Source: a virus
Direction: 5' to 3' (one strand)
Length of the DNA stretch: 25,577 nt
IMG/VR virus record: IMGVR_UViG_3300028608_000071
Coordinates: 1-25,577 of that record
This document shows positions 6,643 through 22,436 of this stretch, in pieces. The notes under the pieces were generated by a model. It was not told the origin of the DNA. It saw only the letters and a program-made list of their open reading frames with translations, and did no database searches. Numbering within the stretch: position 1 is the stretch's first letter; each line of letters opens with the position of its first letter. Both the position numbers and the translations under genes were made by a program.

Positions 6643-8077
6643 TCGGGGTTACCTCATCGTCATCCAGGTCGGGGCCGGGATTCTCGGTTTCCAGTTCATC
6701 GCGGATCTGGTCGTCGGTCTTTTCTGGATCGATAACCCCGCGATCGCGCAAGTACTGCCAGAAGTCGCCCGCCGGCAGCTTGCCGCCCTGCACAGCATTG
6801 AACAGTGCCGAAAGGATCGTCGCGTCCAGAGTGATCTGACTGAAGTCCTGATTGAGTTTGTAGAGGGTTTCGCCCGGAGCATTCACAAACTCGGCCATCC
6901 AGATCAGGCACTGGCTGTAGGCCTCGCTGACGTTGCTCACCACAAGCGAGAGAACGCTGTGTTCGGCGGCGCTGTCGTTGTCAGCCTGGGTCGCGGTCTT
7001 CACCGCACTGCCCCGTTCAATCAACCGGGCGCCGAGCGACACCATGTCCTCTTTCTTGGCGTCCATGGCCTCTTTGACGAGAGTGTTCGGTTCAGGCTGA
7101 GCAAAGCCGCACGAACCGTTGGCCGGGAGCGTCAGGGGCGCCCGAGAGCCAACATAGATACCGTTCGCTTCCAAGTGATCGCGCCAGGCTTCATCAAGCC
7201 CGGATATCCAGAATTGTGGCTGTCCGGAGAACCACACAGAATCCTCGTAGTCCGCACTGTTGCAGTAGTGGCCGATGTTGAGCACGGCCATGTCGTACAG
7301 CGGCGAATCGTCGATGCTGGTGTCGTTGTTCTCACTACCCAGGAACTGGAATGGGATCAACTTCCACGGTTGGCCGAGGCCATTCAATGGCGTGAAAGGC
7401 GGAATGATCATCGCTGTTTCACTGCTGCCTTCTTGCCAGACTTCCTGCGTGTAAACGCCGGCGTCGTCTAGGCGCAGCACTCGATATTGCACGACCCGCT
7501 CACTGCCAAAGCCGTCATCGGTATCGATGTCCACCTCTTCGCGCAAGACAACCAAACTCAGTAGATGCTGACCACCGACCTTGCGAGTCTTCCAGTTCCT
7601 GATGGACTCGGCCGGGTAGCTGGCAACACTTGCCCGGGCACGGCCTGCCTGCTCGTCGGCCTTGCTCACGGTGCCGGCCTTCACAGCGGCGTAATCCACC
7701 AGCAGCCCGTGGCGCCCAACTTCGAGCAAATGCCCGATAACCGATTGCGACTGCTGGTAGATGCTCACGCCCTGTCCGTCGATGTCTTTCGACACGTAGT
7801 CGAGAGCCCCGGGTACAGTCAGCGTTGGCCAAGTGCGGAACACCGCGCCCACCAGGCTGTGCTTCGTCCGGCCGGTGGCGTTGTAGAACACGGCACGCTG
7901 CTTGTACCCCTTGTACCGCTCGACGTTCTCCTGGCTGATATCGTGCGGATTCGGCTTCGGCAGATAGACATCGCCGCGAGCTTTGACTGTTTCGGAACCC
8001 TTGCACACGTCGCGCACCAGCCGCCAACGGGACTGTGCCGCGTCGTATTCCGGGCGGGTGTAGGTGACGTCTGCCAT
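6617..8077 (-). CDS. portal protein (DUF4055 family)
   Basis: I place the start at the ATG on 8077-8075 (MADVTYTRPEYDAAQSRWRL). It overlaps the terminase stop by one base (TAATG), giving coupling, whereas the longer frame extending to 8260 lies inside the terminase gene. The product is 486 residues. Typical DUF4055 features are the GDVYLPKP...NVERYKGYKQRAVFYNATGRT segment, GQGVSIYQQSQSVIGHLLEVGRHGLLVDY (cut here for length in the middle of a conserved helix/loop), a central PFQFLGSENND-type strand, and the long C-terminal helix of the crown. The C-terminal tail is acidic. Portals form the dodecameric entry vertex for DNA packaging. Its place between terminase large subunit and MuF gene confirms the call. 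Confidence 0.85.
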   Translation of the reverse strand: MADVTYTRPEYDAAQSRWRLVRDVCKGSETVKARGDVYLPKPNPHDISQENVERYKGYKQRAVFYNATGRTKHSLVGAVFRTWPTLTVPGALDYVSKDIDGQGVSIYQQSQSVIGHLLEVGRHGLLVDYAAVKAGTVSKADEQAGRARASVASYPAESIRNWKTRKVGGQHLLSLVVLREEVDIDTDDGFGSERVVQYRVLRLDDAGVYTQEVWQEGSSETAMIIPPFTPLNGLGQPWKLIPFQFLGSENNDTSIDDSPLYDMAVLNIGHYCNSADYEDSVWFSGQPQFWISGLDEAWRDHLEANGIYVGSRAPLTLPANGSCGFAQPEPNTLVKEAMDAKKEDMVSLGARLIERGSAVKTATQADNDSAAEHSVLSLVVSNVSEAYSQCLIWMAEFVNAPGETLYKLNQDFSQITLDATILSALFNAVQGGKLPAGDFWQYLRDRGVIDPEKTDDQIRDELETENPGPDLDDDEVTPNGGKPSDP

Positions 8078-9564
8078 TAGCGTGCGAATCCCATTTTGAT
8101 TGATTTGACCGGCTTCCTTGCGCTTTGGGCGACAGCGAAGTACCGGAATGCATCGGCCGGGTGAGAGGACCAATCGTGAAGGGGTTTGTCCTTCCAGCAC
8201 CCACGCTTGTCGTCCCACTCCTTGCGGTAACTCTCCAAGGCGGTGATGCCCTCCTCGCACTTGGCTTCATCGAAAGCGCATCGAGGAAGGATTTCACGGG
8301 CTTGCTCGATGCCTTCGTCGATGCCGAGCTTCGGCACCACCTGGAACGTCATCGAGTAGCACTGACCGTCGATCTCGTAGCCCTCTCGGGCGAGCTCTCG
8401 GCGGGTCTTGCCATCGCTGCCGAATTCCCGATTATCGATGTCGTGCGGGCCCCAGTGATCTCCGTAGGTGTAGCCTCGATCCTTCAGCACCTTCATGTAG
8501 TGCCGCAGGCCTTCCCCGCTGTTCTGGTAGAAGTCGATGACGTGGTATTCGTCGCCAACGATTCGGACGAACCAGATTGCCGTGGAGTCGCCGACACCGA
8601 TGTCCCAGAACGTGTGAACCGGCAAGTGGCTGTTGTCTGGCAGTTTGCCAATGCGCTGCGCCGCATACAGCTTGGTGAACTGCTTGGCGTAGTAGGCACC
8701 CTCGATCGTCTGCTGGAATGCTTCGGCAGGTATCGATGGGTATTCGCGCTTCATGTCTTCGCCGAGGGTCTTTTCCTTGGCGCTGTACCAGGCGCGCTGA
8801 CCTGGGTTTGTGACGATGCCGTGCTTGGCGACCAGGTCGTCGAAGTACTTGGTCAGCCGGTCCGGGATGACGACGTCGGTCGAATCCAGCCAATACAGCG
8901 GATTGCGCCACCAGCTGAAGAAAAAGAACTTCCAGTCCAACAGGCCCAAGGGCACACCGGCCATCTGCTGCTTCTCGGCAGACTGGCTGTAGTCGAAGAA
9001 ATACCCGGCCCGACCTTCTGCTGTCGACTCGATGGTGACGAAGCATTCAGCGGCCACGGCTTCGAATGCGCCGGTGACGATCTCCCGCGCCTTGTGTGGG
9101 AATTTGGCGCAGATCTTCCCGAATTCGGAAACGTGCAAGTAACGCAGCGTACCGCCGCGGAATGAGGTCGAGACGTAGAGAGAGCCGCCCTTGCTAAAAA
9201 CCAACTCCCCGGCAGCGTCGTTGCGTGCCGGGTTGGCTGCCCTGATCTCCTTGGGCAAATTGTCGTAGGCGTACTTGACCTTCTCTCGGAACAGCCGCTT
9301 GGCATCGTTCAGCGTGTGAGCAATCAGTGCGCACTTCGCAGCTTCGAACAGCGCAGCATCCAGCTGGACGATGCAGACAAGCGTCGTAAAGCCCAGCTGC
9401 CGCGCCTTGAGGATAATGTTGCGGGTATGCATCCCCTGGAAGTAATCGATCTGCTCCTGCGTCATGCGGAAGCGGACCTTCTTCCCCTGCTTGTCGGTGA
9501 TGAAGTAGAGGTTGTTCAGTCGCCAGAATCGATCCCGGAGCAGCTTCATGTGCTCGGGCTTCAT
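8077..9564 (-). CDS. terminase large subunit (packaging ATPase/nuclease)
   Basis: A 495-residue protein with the terminase Walker A variant KARQLGFTT at residues 53-61, a Walker-B-like strand LRYLHVSEFGK at about 140-150, and the coupling motif ESTAEG at 179-184. The C-terminal RNase H-like nuclease shows WDIGVGDST (Asp321), HVIDFY (Asp344) and a final HPADAFRYF with an acidic residue near 470. It cuts the DNA concatemer and pumps it into the procapsid through the portal. The gene follows the small subunit with a 1-base gap (TGA then ATG) and overlaps the portal start by one base. Length is normal and nothing is truncated. Confidence 0.92.
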   Translation of the reverse strand: MKPEHMKLLRDRFWRLNNLYFITDKQGKKVRFRMTQEQIDYFQGMHTRNIILKARQLGFTTLVCIVQLDAALFEAAKCALIAHTLNDAKRLFREKVKYAYDNLPKEIRAANPARNDAAGELVFSKGGSLYVSTSFRGGTLRYLHVSEFGKICAKFPHKAREIVTGAFEAVAAECFVTIESTAEGRAGYFFDYSQSAEKQQMAGVPLGLLDWKFFFFSWWRNPLYWLDSTDVVIPDRLTKYFDDLVAKHGIVTNPGQRAWYSAKEKTLGEDMKREYPSIPAEAFQQTIEGAYYAKQFTKLYAAQRIGKLPDNSHLPVHTFWDIGVGDSTAIWFVRIVGDEYHVIDFYQNSGEGLRHYMKVLKDRGYTYGDHWGPHDIDNREFGSDGKTRRELAREGYEIDGQCYSMTFQVVPKLGIDEGIEQAREILPRCAFDEAKCEEGITALESYRKEWDDKRGCWKDKPLHDWSSHPADAFRYFAVAQSARKPVKSIKMGFAR

Positions 9565-17472: not shown

Positions 17473-17679
17473 ATGACCGACTCTTCAGAACTGCAAGGCG
17501 AGATAACCGCCCTTTGCTGCTTTGTGGCTGCCTTGGCATCCACCCTGCCCTTGTCTTCTCAGCTCAGGCTTTGGCCTGCGTTTGAATCGAAGGCCAATCA
17601 ACTGCGTTGTCAGTTGAGCCAAGAAGCTCTTCGCGGCTTCGAGCAGGCGACAATTACGCTCAGCTCGAAGCGTGGTTAA
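17473..17679 (+). CDS. hypothetical 68-residue protein, antisense in the early lytic operon
   Basis: The ATG at 17473 has AGGGA 7 bases upstream. The product starts MTDSSELQGEITALCCFVAA and is helical: a hydrophobic first helix (ITALCCFVAALASTLPL), then FESKANQLRCQLSQEALRGF. The sequence has a normal coding composition and a 'LA..LP...Q......fE.~a' pattern seen in small Pseudomonas phage proteins. It lies on the plus strand between cro and the cII-position gene, overlapping the end of cro by 4 bases tail to tail. It would be made from transcripts antisense to the lytic message. Function unknown. Confidence 0.5.
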   Translation: MTDSSELQGEITALCCFVAALASTLPLSSQLRLWPAFESKANQLRCQLSQEALRGFEQATITLSSKRG

Positions 17680-17870
17680 GCAGCGGACTTTTGTGACGGA
17701 AACGGGCGCTGTTCATTTGCTTGGAAACTTCCGTCAGGAAGCTCCTGAACACGGATGTCGCGTTTGGCTGAAAGCGCCTTGTGAATTGCTGGGGCAGTGA
17801 CACGAAGCAGCCTTGCGGCTTCGGACTGCCCTTTTTCAGCAACAAACTTGTCGAGGGGGGTCTCGTTCAT
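17676..17870 (-). CDS. cro: Cro repressor
   Basis: A 64-residue protein starting MNETPLDKFVAEKGQSEAAR, with GAGG 7 bases before the ATG. It lines up along its length with lambda Cro: 'L.dfv...Gq..aA..L.v...ai.ka' for the helix-turn-helix (residues 9-33), then RDIRVQELPDGSFQANEQRP and FPSQKSAA, equivalent to lambda's 'DGSVYAEEVKPFPSNKKTTA' (shown here in part). Cro represses cI and tunes early promoters. It is the first gene of the minus-strand lytic transcript, facing cI across a 104-bp operator region. Confidence 0.9.
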   Translation of the reverse strand: MNETPLDKFVAEKGQSEAARLLRVTAPAIHKALSAKRDIRVQELPDGSFQANEQRPFPSQKSAA

Positions 17871-17903
17871 GATCAAGCCTCGGTCGTAGATGATTCGAAT
17901 ATT

Positions 17904-17963
17904 AACCATCTGTTAATTATAAATCAATACCGATGGTTTCTTCTTATTTTTAACCGTTGGTAT
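17904..17963. promoter_or_regulatory. OR-like region: three CI/Cro operators
   Basis: Three related sites lie between cro and cI: AACCATCTGTTA (17904-17915), ATACCGATGGTT (17927-17938, inverted) and AACCGTTGGTAT (17952-17963). The consensus is AACCATCGGTAT. Centres are 23-25 bp apart, about two turns, as in lambda OR. The same motif recurs twice at 22397-22432. Confidence 0.85.
17916..17921 (-). promoter_or_regulatory. PR (cro promoter) -10 box
   Basis: A perfect TATAAT on the minus strand lies between the first two operators. The -35 region falls on the second operator and is weak by sequence. Predicted transcription starts inside the first operator, so repressor binding would block it. Confidence 0.65.
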
Positions 17964-17966
17964 ACA
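17961..17966 (+). promoter_or_regulatory. PRM (cI promoter) -10 box, near-leaderless cI message
   Basis: TATACA overlaps the third operator and ends 8 bases before the cI ATG, so transcription would start at or within about 2 bases of the ATG. No ribosome site precedes the ATG. This matches the leaderless cI message of lambda PRM. Confidence 0.55.
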
Positions 17967-17974
17967 TTCGCGCG

Positions 17975-18856
17975 ATGACCAAAAAACGAATCCTCCCGCC
18001 TGAGCTGATCGCCGAATGCGCAGCCGCGCACGACTTATTCCTGTCGAAGAAGAACGAGCTGAAGCTCAGCCAGAAGAAAATTGCCGATGAGGCCGGGATG
18101 ACTCCGGCTGCAGTGAATCTTTACTTCAAGGGCATCAATCCCCTGAACACTAAATTCGCCGCCGTTCTTGCACGCATGCTTGATGAGCCTGTCTCTGCAT
18201 TCAGCCCGCGCCTGGCTGACGAGATAGCGGCGCTGACCAGCGCCACGGCCAAGCCAGCCGTAGCGGTAGGATCGAGTGCGGCCGATAAAGTGATGGAGAT
18301 GATCCGCAAGCATGCAGGTAAGAATCTGGATGCGGACGCTCAGGAAAAAATCGCGGCGGCGGCGCTGTCTGCCGCTGGCGAGGCGCACGGCAAAGTAATT
18401 CAGGCTGATTTTTCCGGGATAAAAGCAAGGCCTGAAGAAATCGTGATTCGCCAATACGACGTGCGCGCGTCCATGGGGCACGGCCAGGTCCCAGCTGAAT
18501 ACAACGAGGTAATAAGAAACCTCATTATTCGCGAGGACGTGCTGCGCGAAAAAGGCATTACCTACACCTCCCCCCACTCTCTCGCCATGATTACCGGCTG
18601 GGGTCAGAGCATGGAGGGAACGATCAACGATAAAGACCCACTGATCGTCGACAAGGGTGTCAACGAGTACGCAGGCGACGGGATATACGTACTGACCTGG
18701 CATGAGCATTTATTCATAAAGCGTATTCAGTTACTGGACTCAGAGCGTTTCTTGCTTGTGTCCGACAATCCGCACGTCAGGGATCAAGAGGCGAGAATCG
18801 AAGACGTGACGGTTCACGCCAAAGTGCTGCTGATCTGGAATGCGAGGAAAGCTTGA
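17975..18856 (+). CDS. cI: CI-type prophage repressor (HTH plus S24 peptidase domain)
   Basis: The ATG at 17975 gives 293 residues (MTKKRILPPELIAECAAAHD). The helix-turn-helix lies at about 31-60 (LSQKKIADEAGMTPAAVNLY). An Ala-rich linker follows (90-145). The S24/LexA-like domain has YDVRASMGHGQ at 161-171, GWGQSMEGTINDKDPLIVDKG with Ser212, and HEHLFIKRIQ with Lys249, forming the Ser-Lys dyad (37 residues apart, as in LexA). At the usual cleavage site the residues are Met167-Gly168 instead of Ala-Gly; another Ala-Gly pair (134-135) lies in the linker. Repressor maintains lysogeny by binding the operators at 17904-17963 and 22397-22432. Confidence 0.92.
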   Translation: MTKKRILPPELIAECAAAHDLFLSKKNELKLSQKKIADEAGMTPAAVNLYFKGINPLNTKFAAVLARMLDEPVSAFSPRLADEIAALTSATAKPAVAVGSSAADKVMEMIRKHAGKNLDADAQEKIAAAALSAAGEAHGKVIQADFSGIKARPEEIVIRQYDVRASMGHGQVPAEYNEVIRNLIIREDVLREKGITYTSPHSLAMITGWGQSMEGTINDKDPLIVDKGVNEYAGDGIYVLTWHEHLFIKRIQLLDSERFLLVSDNPHVRDQEARIEDVTVHAKVLLIWNARKA

Positions 18857-18859
18857 GCC

Positions 18860-19087
18860 ATGCCTCTCACCAAGCCCAACCAGGAACTAAGCCGCGATCT
18901 GAAAGCCGCAGCCTCCGCGATCGAGGATGCCGCACACGATCTTTTCCGTGAGGCCAAGACCTACGCTGAGCCTGAGTTCCTGGCAGTCATGGAGAAGATC
19001 GCAATGCTGCATGAGCACATGGATCGGCTGATGGAGTATGCCGAGGAAGTGAAGGTTGGGCGAATAACGCGAGCGAAGTCTGAGTAG
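18860..19087 (+). CDS. hypothetical small helical protein behind cI
   Basis: A 75-residue protein starting MPLTKPNQELSRDLKAAASA. The gene lies 3 bases behind the cI stop and is therefore probably on the cI transcript. The product is almost wholly helical and acidic (AIEDAAHDLFREAKTYAEPE, then FLAVMEKIAMLHEHMDRLME), with a basic end. No family is recognised. Expression in the lysogen is inferred from position. Confidence 0.6.
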   Translation: MPLTKPNQELSRDLKAAASAIEDAAHDLFREAKTYAEPEFLAVMEKIAMLHEHMDRLMEYAEEVKVGRITRAKSE

Positions 19088-19138: not shown

Positions 19139-19315
19139 ATGAAAAAGACGATGGCATTCTTTGCGCTGGCAACGCTTGTTGGCTGCAACGCACACACACC
19201 AGTGCCCTCTCCTCTTCCTCAGGGCAACATGCCGATGACTCAACAGGAGTATCAAGAAGCCGAGCAGCTGCTCCTCAAGAAGCAGCCATTGCCGGCCGAT
19301 GAGCGTGCGGAATAG
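19139..19315 (+). CDS. small prophage lipoprotein
   Basis: A 58-residue protein starting MKKTMAFFALATLVGCNAHT, a clear lipoprotein signal: Lys-rich start, hydrophobic helix and lipobox LVGC with Cys16. The mature part is short, Pro/Gln-rich and acidic (QQEYQEAEQLLLKKQPLPAD). AAGGA lies 7 bases before the ATG. It is probably anchored in the outer or inner membrane as a lipid-modified peptide. It lies downstream of cI in the prophage-expressed region, where small lipoproteins often block superinfecting phages (for example Llp/Cor-like), but this role is only an inference. Confidence 0.7.
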   Translation: MKKTMAFFALATLVGCNAHTPVPSPLPQGNMPMTQQEYQEAEQLLLKKQPLPADERAE

Positions 19316-19355: not shown

Positions 19356-19384
19356 TTGTAATTGCGCGCCTAAAATTTTATAGT
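19356..19384 (+). promoter_or_regulatory. sigma70-type promoter candidate for the STAS-GHKL gene
   Basis: TTGTAA and TATAGT are separated by exactly 17 bp in an A/T-rich gap. This would start transcription about 35 bases before the ATG at 19427, whose ribosome site AAGGAG is near-perfect. So the accessory gene may be expressed independently of cI. Confidence 0.5.
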
Positions 19385-19426
19385 TGGTTTAAATTCATAT
19401 TAAAATGAGCATGAAAAGGAGTTCAG

Positions 19427-20725
19427 ATGTATCACGAAGGTTTCGAAGAGCTTAAGCGCGAACTGGAGTCTTCTAGTATTGAAAGGCTAACTTTGCCTGC
19501 TCGCTTTTCTTTCAAAGAGCATGATGTTTATGATTTCGACCGACTAATAAAATTTTTTGATTGGACACTCACAAACAAACCAGTAGAAATAGATCTAACG
19601 AAATGCCACACCGCTAATTACCAAGCGCTGTCACTACTCGCAATTTACGGCTGGAAGCTAAAATCGCAGGGATGTAGGGTAACCTTTCTCGAGAACAGTA
19701 AAACAACGGGGGCCAGTGAAATGTGGCGGAGCATGGGCGCCCGCGGTCTCTTTGCAGTTCTTTTCAATGGCGGCCAACAATTCAAAGGCCATCACTTCAA
19801 ACCGTTATTTGCGGTAAGGGACTCTAAAGATTTCGGAACGGTTATCACCTCAGCAGAATCGTATACTAACGGTTTCAACGTCGAATATGAAGGAACCTTA
19901 CGATACGTACTGAGCGAGTTGCTTTATAATACCATGGAACATGGAAAGTGCTATTCAGGGACCGGATCAGTCAGAATACCGTCTCTGGTACAATTCACCT
20001 GGTATAAACAAAGGAATGAGATTCAGTTCATAATCGCTGATCTCGGGATGGGTATAAAGCGCCATGTAGAACAAGCGTTTCCGCCTCTTGATTCGGACGA
20101 GGATGCGATCGAATTTGCTCTTCGCGCAAAGGTTTCTGGAACATTTGGGAAAAATGACCCGTACAGAAACAAAAATAACGCAGGCATGGGGCTCTATATC
20201 TCCTCCAGCATTATACGGCGGTTAAACGCTGATATGCATATCCTCTCCGGCAATGGGCTTGTTCACATTTCCCCTAGGGATGTTACAAGAAGACGCATGA
20301 ATACGGAATGGCCCGGAACACTGGTACTTGTATCATTACGACTAGAAAAAAATCCAACTTTTTTGCTCCACAAAATGATGCAGGAATTCCGCGCGGCCGC
20401 CGACTCCGAACAAAAAAACGGGGATACAGAAGAGGCAAAATCAAGATTTTTAGTAGGGATTAATAATTTTTTTGGCCGTTACGCAGAAGACAAAGAAGCG
20501 GCAATTAGTTTTAGGGATAGGCGTATTTTTCCTGCCATTGAGGAAGGAAAGATTATAGTAGTTGATTTCGAAAATGTTGTAAGTTCACCTCATAGTTTTC
20601 TGAGTGCGTTACTAGCGTCTCCAATAAAAAGCTTGGGTATGATCGCATTTAAAAGGATTAAATTTGTGAACGCTACGCCTGAAATACGAGAGACGATCGA
20701 TTTCATCATGGAGGACAACACCTAA
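19427..20725 (+). CDS. STAS-like/GHKL ATPase/DUF4325-like accessory protein
   Basis: A 432-residue protein in three parts. Residues about 20-115 look like a STAS-type domain (PVEIDLTKCHTANYQALSLL, then a helix and QGCRVTFLE). Residues about 155-305 are a GHKL ATPase with N box E164/N168/E171-H172 (SELLYNTMEHGK), G1 box DLGMG at 205-209, G2 box GMGL at 253-256 and G3 GT at 297-298. Residues about 365-428 resemble DUF4325, a STAS-like fold (RIFPAIEEGKIIVVDFENVV, SFLSALL). No phosphoacceptor His domain is visible, so it is not a typical sensor kinase; it looks more like an anti-sigma/partner-switch fusion. Codon use is much more AT-rich than the phage backbone. Its place between cI and OL suggests a lysogenic conversion or exclusion gene. 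Confidence 0.75.
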   Translation: MYHEGFEELKRELESSSIERLTLPARFSFKEHDVYDFDRLIKFFDWTLTNKPVEIDLTKCHTANYQALSLLAIYGWKLKSQGCRVTFLENSKTTGASEMWRSMGARGLFAVLFNGGQQFKGHHFKPLFAVRDSKDFGTVITSAESYTNGFNVEYEGTLRYVLSELLYNTMEHGKCYSGTGSVRIPSLVQFTWYKQRNEIQFIIADLGMGIKRHVEQAFPPLDSDEDAIEFALRAKVSGTFGKNDPYRNKNNAGMGLYISSSIIRRLNADMHILSGNGLVHISPRDVTRRRMNTEWPGTLVLVSLRLEKNPTFLLHKMMQEFRAAADSEQKNGDTEEAKSRFLVGINNFFGRYAEDKEAAISFRDRRIFPAIEEGKIIVVDFENVVSSPHSFLSALLASPIKSLGMIAFKRIKFVNATPEIRETIDFIMEDNT

Positions 20726-20727
20726 GC

Positions 20728-20846
20728 TTGACTTTCATGGAGAAATAGGCCATACATCGATCGTGTGCTTGCGTTGGTGCACAGCCATCCGTTGAGAAAA
20801 CGTGATCGGTATGATCGAACAAAAGCCCCCTTATGGGGGCTTTTTT
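20728..20846 (+). ncRNA. possible small RNA with strong terminator
   Basis: TTGACT (20728-20733) and CATACA (20751-20756) are 17 bp apart, and a strong terminator follows about 65-85 bases later. In between lies a TGTGC/GCACA hairpin (20764-20783). No reading frame fits. This could be a short RNA of about 85 nt or only the 3' end of the preceding gene's message. The -10 box is weak. Confidence 0.3.
20821..20846 (+). terminator. intrinsic terminator after the accessory gene
   Basis: AAAGCCCCC and GGGGGCTTT form a 9-bp stem around TTAT, followed by TTTTTT. It is strong and ends transcription of the STAS-GHKL gene or of the small RNA candidate. Confidence 0.88.
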
Positions 20847-21390: not shown

Positions 21391-21966
21391 ATGAAGGGAT
21401 TCGGTACGTTTGCGATGATCGTCGGCGTCTGCTGGCTGGTATTCGCTCTAGGTATGGATGTTTCCGTGGCAACGGGCTCGGGTGGCCGGGTGAACAATCT
21501 AGGCCTCATGGCTGACCGCCAGGTTCACACTATCGTCGGCGCCATGATTACGCTGGCAGGCTTGCTGATGATTCTGTTGGGCGGGAAAGTCGCTACCACA
21601 TCTGCACGCACTGAGACCGAGACTCGCCCCTGCCCTTTGTGTGCTGAGACCATCAAAATGGCAGCGGTGAAGTGCAAACACTGCGGTGCAGAAGTTGAAG
21701 CGGTAGCGGTCCCTCGCCTCAAAAACGGCTGGGTAGCAACAACCACATGCCGAGACATAGAAGAGCAGGAGCGCACGATTGATGCCATTGCCGCGATCGG
21801 TCTGCCGGTAATTTCTATGATGGGTCTCGCCGTGGGTGCCGGCCCCTTTGAAACAAAGGACAAAGCCAAGGCTGCCCTGAAGCAGATGCGGGATGGGCCG
21901 AGGCTATACAGCGAAATCGTTTATAGGGATTCGGTCAGCGGCAAATATCACCCGATTACCGATTGA
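21391..21966 (+). CDS. membrane protein with zinc ribbon and SPOR-like C-terminus
   Basis: The ATG at 21391 follows GGGAGGCAACCA and gives 191 residues. Two membrane helices lie at about 5-21 and 47-65 (MITLAGLLMILLGG). A zinc ribbon has Cys81, Cys84, Cys95 and Cys98 (CPLCAETIKMAAVKCKHCG). The C-terminal domain (about 110-185) shows GWVATTTCRDIEEQERTIDA, then GAGPFETKDKAKAALKQMRD, the 'vGPf.tk..A..al..l' pattern of SPOR-like domains. SPOR domains bind denuded peptidoglycan, but the topology here may leave this domain in the cytoplasm. It is probably a prophage accessory protein. A terminator follows its stop. Confidence 0.65.
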   Translation: MKGFGTFAMIVGVCWLVFALGMDVSVATGSGGRVNNLGLMADRQVHTIVGAMITLAGLLMILLGGKVATTSARTETETRPCPLCAETIKMAAVKCKHCGAEVEAVAVPRLKNGWVATTTCRDIEEQERTIDAIAAIGLPVISMMGLAVGAGPFETKDKAKAALKQMRDGPRLYSEIVYRDSVSGKYHPITD

Positions 21967-22326: not shown

Positions 22327-22396
22327 AACCCCACCCGTAGCTGTACATCCATCCAGTTATAACCAAAGCATATCTCACACCCATCGAAAATAAATT

Positions 22397-22436
22397 AACC
22401 ATCGGTGTTGACGTTAAAATATACCGATGGTTAACT
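22397..22436 (+). promoter_or_regulatory. OL-like operator pair and PL promoter
   Basis: AACCATCGGTGT (22397-22408) and ATACCGATGGTT (22421-22432, inverted) match the cI/cro operators, with centres 24 bp apart. TTGACG (22408-22413) and TTAACT (22431-22436) with a 17-bp spacer make a plus-strand promoter overlapping both operators. Repressor would silence the plus-strand early operon from here. Confidence 0.75.

Follow-up and report, generated by a model that had tools for sequence, protein, structure and literature searches.

For the locus analysed here, one may ask what target a kinase-STAS switch has if no effector gene comes with it. The window (the whole 25,577-nucleotide stretch of DNA that was analysed) is a Pseudomonas prophage with a single gene, beside its repressor gene, for a protein that joins an N-terminal STAS domain, a GHKL kinase/ATPase domain and a C-terminal DUF4325 STAS domain. 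Over its full length, the protein belongs to PHROG 5816 (E 1.2e-207, residues 4–432 of 432), which, like PHROG 3364 (the split kinase) and PHROG 9989 (the split DUF4325 protein), has no functional annotation. No description of a STAS-GHKL-DUF4325 fusion was found in the literature searched, where mentions of DUF4325 are scarce. VapKSC and CapKS were described only in 2026, and the present family shows that phages themselves have this kinase-STAS module, reduced to a single gene.

Organization of the interval between cI and OL

The features of the locus, in window coordinates, are as follows.

17679–17909, minus strand: cro-like repressor gene (phrog_35, E 1.4e-9)
17902–17958, unstranded: OR, three operator-like sites between cro and cI (sequence and motif matches)
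17957–18856, plus strand: cI repressor gene, HTH plus S24 LexA-type (phrog_4, E 8e-34; phrog_6201, E 1e-18)
18860–19087, plus strand: small gene of phrog_6388, directly after cI (PHROG match)
19139–19315, plus strand: short lipoprotein-like open reading frame of 58 residues, no family (sequence)
19356–19384, plus strand: weak promoter-like site TTGTAA-17-TATAGT (6 matches in the region, 4.1 expected in shuffled sequences)
19416–19421, plus strand: ribosome binding site AAGGAG (sequence)
19427–20725, plus strand: fused STAS-GHKL-DUF4325 gene, 432 residues (ATG at 19427, stop codon at 20723–20725, zero internal stops)
20821–20846, plus strand: intrinsic terminator AAAAGCCCCC-TTAT-GGGGGCTTTTTT, a strong hairpin with a T-run (sequence)
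21391–21966, plus strand: zinc-ribbon membrane gene, the far border of the variable slot (downstream neighbour common to the phage contigs L002 and L003 and to phage PseuP_222)
22395–22434, unstranded: OL, operator-like sites with a PL-like TTGACG (motif matches)

The operator motif has seven matches, all of them at 17902–17958 and 22395–22434; shuffled sequences would give 0.5. Since the matches are confined to OR and OL, the fusion gene, which has the orientation of the repressor gene, sits between cI and OL. This is where the sequence-only reading had placed it, and the PHROG assignments of cro and cI agree. The strong terminator described in that reading is present, and the promoter that it assigned to the gene corresponds to a weak consensus match, near the background of shuffled sequences. 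With 43.3% GC, where the remainder of the window has 58.3%, the fusion gene does have the AT-rich, acquired character described. No PIN toxin was matched among the flanking proteins searched, and no sigma-factor gene was recognised near the fusion gene.

The content of this slot varies between related phages. In Pseudomonas phage PseuP_222 (L062), the matching slot, bounded by cI and the same zinc-ribbon gene, holds bstA. BstA is a proven cI-adjacent abortive-infection protein, typically encoded downstream of cI and expressed in the lysogen (PMC8585504), and in a P. putida prophage a comparable position is taken by a RexAB-type system (PMC12894663). The fusion gene shares the cI-OL slot and the position of lysogen-expressed cargo with BstA and lambda-type RexAB, but its product is an unrelated protein. 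The presence of BstA in the same slot and the recurrence of homologues downstream of phage repressors are in keeping with the earlier idea of an exclusion- or defence-slot gene. The PseuP_222 gene itself (6946–7863, minus strand) is annotated as 'hypothetical protein', and its product is a BstA homologue by its match to phrog_6287 (E 1.7e-109). In L002, the zinc-ribbon neighbour (7835–8410, homologous to 21391–21966 of the window) includes a region that matches phrog_1039, 'immunity to superinfection' (E 6e-25).

Domain architecture of the fusion protein

The three domains and the loop discussed below map to the window as follows.

19478–19816, plus strand: N-terminal STAS domain, about residues 18–130 (AlphaFold2 model, sub-threshold Pfam STAS_2, profile match to VapK over STAS and GHKL)
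19823–20347, plus strand: GHKL kinase/ATPase domain, about residues 133–307, with N168 at 19928–19930 and D205 at 20039–20041 (Pfam, AlphaFold2, fold comparison)
20444–20722, plus strand: C-terminal DUF4325 STAS domain, about residues 340–432, VapS-like (Pfam, AlphaFold2, VapS alignment)
20591–20596, plus strand: His389-Ser390, at the start of a STAS α-helix in the near-invariant motif PHSFLSALLA (His389 at the position of the VapS phospho-Ser48)

Pfam matches above cut-off were obtained for DUF4325 (residues 359–420, E 5.7e-9) and HATPase_c (residues 157–277, E 6e-6), while STAS_2 (residues 36–88, E 0.064) was sub-threshold. The AlphaFold2 model, calculated with seven sequences as input (mean pLDDT 73), shows a STAS-like α/β domain at about residues 18–130, a GHKL domain at about 133–307, a low-confidence linker at 308–334 and a second STAS domain at about 340–432. 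Model and Pfam together thus reproduce the three-domain layout of the sequence-only reading. No HTH or wHTH was matched by Pfam in the 432-residue protein, and the model leaves no room for one.

In fold comparisons, the GHKL domain is closest to SpoIIAB (1l0o, Z 12.7 for 135 residues), followed by RsbW (6m37, Z 10.5), with lower scores against sensor histidine kinases and CheA (Z about 8.4–8.9); the Pseudomonas SiaB-SiaC complex (6kko) is also among the structural matches. The GHKL boxes, E164-N168-H172, D205-x-G207-x-G209, N251-A-G-M-G255 and P296-G-T298, were rightly read as intact; the motif residues are invariant in eight homologues, and the GHKL fold is present in the model. The modelled Bergerat fold and the N, G1 and G2 motifs indicate that the protein belongs to the GHKL anti-sigma-type kinase superfamily. 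Searches of PADLOC, NCBIfam and PDB sequences with the single protein returned nothing specific, and the protein fits no PADLOC model.

Comparison with VapKSC, CapK/CapS and anti-sigma switches

CapK is an ssDNA-activated kinase of HTH-STAS-GHKL architecture that responds to DNA damage and phosphorylates the STAS repressor CapS (PMC13373217, EMBO J 2026). The related VapKSC is a toxin-antitoxin system whose PIN toxin, VapC, is proposed to be set free when the kinase VapK phosphorylates VapS, the STAS antitoxin. The system protects against a phage, and mutation of VapK, VapS or VapC abolishes the protection (PMC13373217). The sequence-only reading named no described phage system of this exact layout, but the layout does not stand alone: it is that of PHROG 5816 and is related to the proteins of these two systems (PMC13373217).

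The N-terminal 300–310 or so residues of the fusion protein align with VapK across both STAS and GHKL (hhalign probability 98.7%, E 2e-16), and phrog_3364 is matched alike by VapK, by the split phage kinases and by the N-terminus of the window protein. The C-terminus aligns with VapS (hhalign 84%, E 7e-6), and the solved Escherichia VapS (9z7o) matches the DUF4325 profile (E 1e-8). VapS was missing from a profile search with the fused C-terminus alone and from the fold-search matches listed; this absence is read as a sensitivity limit, because the broader DUF4325 profile does find VapS.

The fusion thus resembles VapKSC in its VapK-like STAS-GHKL part, its VapS-like DUF4325 STAS domain and the same conserved loop region, but differs in being one polypeptide with no adjacent PIN/VapC gene. 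The tail after the loop has 39–47 residues in the fusions, compared with 60–66 in VapS proteins. The VapC-blocking helix is thus missing, in line with the lack of a toxin gene. With CapK/CapS, the fusion shares a STAS-GHKL kinase paired with a STAS substrate, and a link to phage defence. In contrast to that pair, it has neither the N-terminal HTH of the kinase nor the C-terminal wHTH of the STAS protein, no downstream immune operon accompanies it, and the substrate-like domain is joined to the kinase. SpoIIAB/SpoIIAA and RsbW/RsbV likewise combine the closest GHKL folds with a STAS partner, but the fusion has an additional N-terminal STAS domain, its kinase and STAS parts are joined, and it is phage-borne.

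By these features, the fusion protein is neither VapKSC nor CapK/CapS, though it very probably operates in a similar way. As CapK and VapK also have it, the STAS-GHKL fusion itself is not unusual; what sets this protein apart is the extra DUF4325 domain at its C-terminus. The most fitting view of the window protein is that of a kinase and substrate pair brought together in a single gene.

The unfused arrangements differ in their neighbours. Complete VapKSC (kinase, DUF4325 protein and PIN protein) was found in the Deinococcus plasmid L028, whose PIN protein matches the solved Escherichia VapC, and in two genomes (L073 and L075). Split kinase and DUF4325 pairs with no adjacent PIN gene are carried by Streptococcus phage LYGO9, Marinitoga phage MPV1 and a Pseudomonas plasmid. 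Francisella phage KIRK has a DUF4325 gene and a 293-residue partner annotated only as hypothetical, possibly a further split form directly after cI (PMC7924643).

The ssDNA-stacking aromatic residue of these kinases (CapK W68, VapK F54) may correspond to a Trp of the L028 VapK, the reference used, that aligns with Thr62 of the fusion. The stacking residue may therefore be missing in the fusion; a conserved Tyr/Phe65 lies three residues beyond Thr62.

The putative acceptor loop of the C-terminal domain

The statement of the sequence-only reading that the protein has no phosphoacceptor domain is not supported, since VapS, which VapK is proposed to phosphorylate, belongs to the DUF4325 family too. 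In VapS proteins, a Ser/Thr lies two residues before a conserved Phe, and S48 of Escherichia VapS falls there by alignment (numbering with 18 tag residues inferred from a chain length of 134 versus 116). The fusion proteins have no Ser/Thr at this position; it is occupied by His389, or by Gln in L053, and phosphorylation by the known chemistry is therefore not assured. The adjacent Ser390 is invariant among the fusions, and in the fused phage proteins the invariant positions within the C-terminal domain include the H-S-F motif of this loop. The S-F pattern is also found in the DUF4325 proteins of the split pairs without PIN.

Distribution and genomic settings

Viral relatives share full-length identities of 83% (L002 and L003, which have the same gene), 80% (L004), 71% (L005), 51% (L029) and 44% (L069). 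Substitutions are strongly biased to the third codon position, where they are saturated, and dN is 0.13–0.21 for the three closest phage homologues, a pattern pointing to strong purifying selection on the fusion gene. Incomplete or decayed copies occur in L006 and L057. In a phylogenetic tree, the fused proteins form one clade (support 93/93) and the VapK proteins another (100/99). BLASTN and TBLASTN searches against phage and plasmid records yielded distant split kinases and no isolated, annotated phage with the fusion.

The complete fusion was found, on chromosomes, in five of 398 Pseudomonadota genomes, and in none of 398 Pseudomonadaceae genomes (profile search, E 1e-20) or of a set of 56 Pseudomonadaceae. 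Because the same profile did detect the fusion in other Pseudomonadota, its absence here reflects rarity and not a failure of detection. The patchy occurrence is that of an accessory gene, and the survey did not find its homologues to be mostly chromosomal housekeeping genes. The fusion or its remnant lies just downstream of alaS in L055, L056 and L057, an indication that the chromosomal site is fixed within this lineage.

Five phage contigs (the window, L002, L003, L004 and L005) carry the fusion close to a repressor gene, and in L069 it is adjacent to a repressor and an integrase. In L002 and L004, the gene begins about 67–110 bp after an S24-type cI, a spacing short enough for co-transcription. 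In L005, a small HTH gene and then a short open reading frame precede it. The L069 copy lies between an HTH and ImmA-like pair and an integrase. In L029, a lone, AT-rich fusion gene is inserted between a Mu-like neck gene and a head maturation protease, and its solitary position within a Mu-like structural operon argues for a self-contained single gene. The GC gap recurs in the phage relatives, reaching 38.5% against 67.8% in L029, with the exception of L069, where the surroundings are equally AT-rich. No neighbour gene is common to all the homologous loci compared.

Proposed function and alternatives

The reading that we favour, with moderate confidence, is that the gene is prophage cargo, predicted to be expressed in the lysogen, and that its product is a one-protein VapK-VapS (CapK-CapS-like) kinase/STAS switch for exclusion or a stress response. 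The N-terminal STAS and GHKL domains, whose fold, motifs and homology to VapK are described above, would form an active anti-sigma-type protein kinase and would sense a stress signal arising from phage infection or DNA damage, possibly ssDNA as for CapK. Once activated, the kinase would phosphorylate the attached DUF4325 STAS domain at the His389-Ser390 loop, or alternatively would hold this domain while at rest; control of the C-terminal STAS could be exerted in cis or between the protomers of a dimer. The change would free or hide a STAS surface for a partner. With no toxin, DNA-binding domain or shared neighbour gene, that partner would have to come from the host or from the invading phage. 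What follows, the least certain step, might be exclusion, abortive infection or a host stress response. The phage-borne module sits where exclusion genes are kept and lacks the toxin and DNA-binding outputs so far known for such switches. A bolder proposal, to which we give only modest credence, is single-gene exclusion: a GHKL kinase that senses infection would govern the STAS domain fused to it, without a dedicated toxin or regulator, and His389 or the shifted Ser390 would be a novel type of acceptor in a STAS domain.

Homologues also occur on chromosomes, in three cases (one a remnant) beside alaS, and the gene may thus serve to regulate the host instead of excluding phages. Its product would then mimic an anti-sigma or partner-switch protein: by binding or phosphorylating a STAS protein or sigma-related factor of the host, such as those of the SiaB-SiaC or HsbA circuits of Pseudomonas, it would alter the physiology of the lysogen. 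The proximity of the GHKL domain to SpoIIAB and RsbW, the match to 6kko, the solo chromosomal copies and the lack of a toxin partner fit such a role; however, the fusion brings its own substrate-like STAS domain, and the recurrent phage carriage in exclusion slots and patchy spread suit conflict genes better. We regard host regulation as possible but rather improbable.

It is less likely still that the protein is an accessory to the induction switch that senses DNA damage or the state of the phage and tunes CI. The position of the gene directly after cI in L002 and L004 and within the cI-OL interval of the window would suit a controller of lysogeny, as would the response of the relative CapK to DNA damage (PMC13373217), but homologues also occur in the Mu-like structural operon, beside repressors of other types (L069) and on chromosomes where no cI was seen in the vicinity; across settings so varied, CI cannot be what the protein generally acts on. 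Descent from a VapKSC antitoxin that has degenerated, and that now neutralises or hijacks VapC-type toxins encoded elsewhere in the host, would account for the clear homology to VapK and VapS but is very improbable, given the shortened tail with its missing VapC-blocking helix, the separation of the fused clade from VapK and the strong purifying selection.

Through the one-protein kinase/STAS switch that we favour, three phage families that lack annotation, PHROG 5816, 3364 and 9989, acquire a likely kinship with VapK and VapS and a mechanism that can be tested.

Related kinases in other settings

The PADLOC model PDLC02567 (DrmA, 1750 positions) matches STAS-GHKL proteins over its N-terminal positions, about 50–390, including residues 58–419 of the L069 protein, which suggests that some DrmA-like defence proteins carry a STAS-GHKL module. 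A kinase that falls near the fused clade is encoded on the Phaeobacter plasmid pP129_f (L026, 2732–4576). The protein encoded ahead of it is weakly HEPN/RES-like (Pfam E 5e-4, below cut-off) and may be a further toxin partner. In L058 (5996–9359), a kinase of the family adjoins an N6/N4 DNA methylase gene and a resolvase, an arrangement that recalls the CapK genes located downstream of restriction-modification systems.
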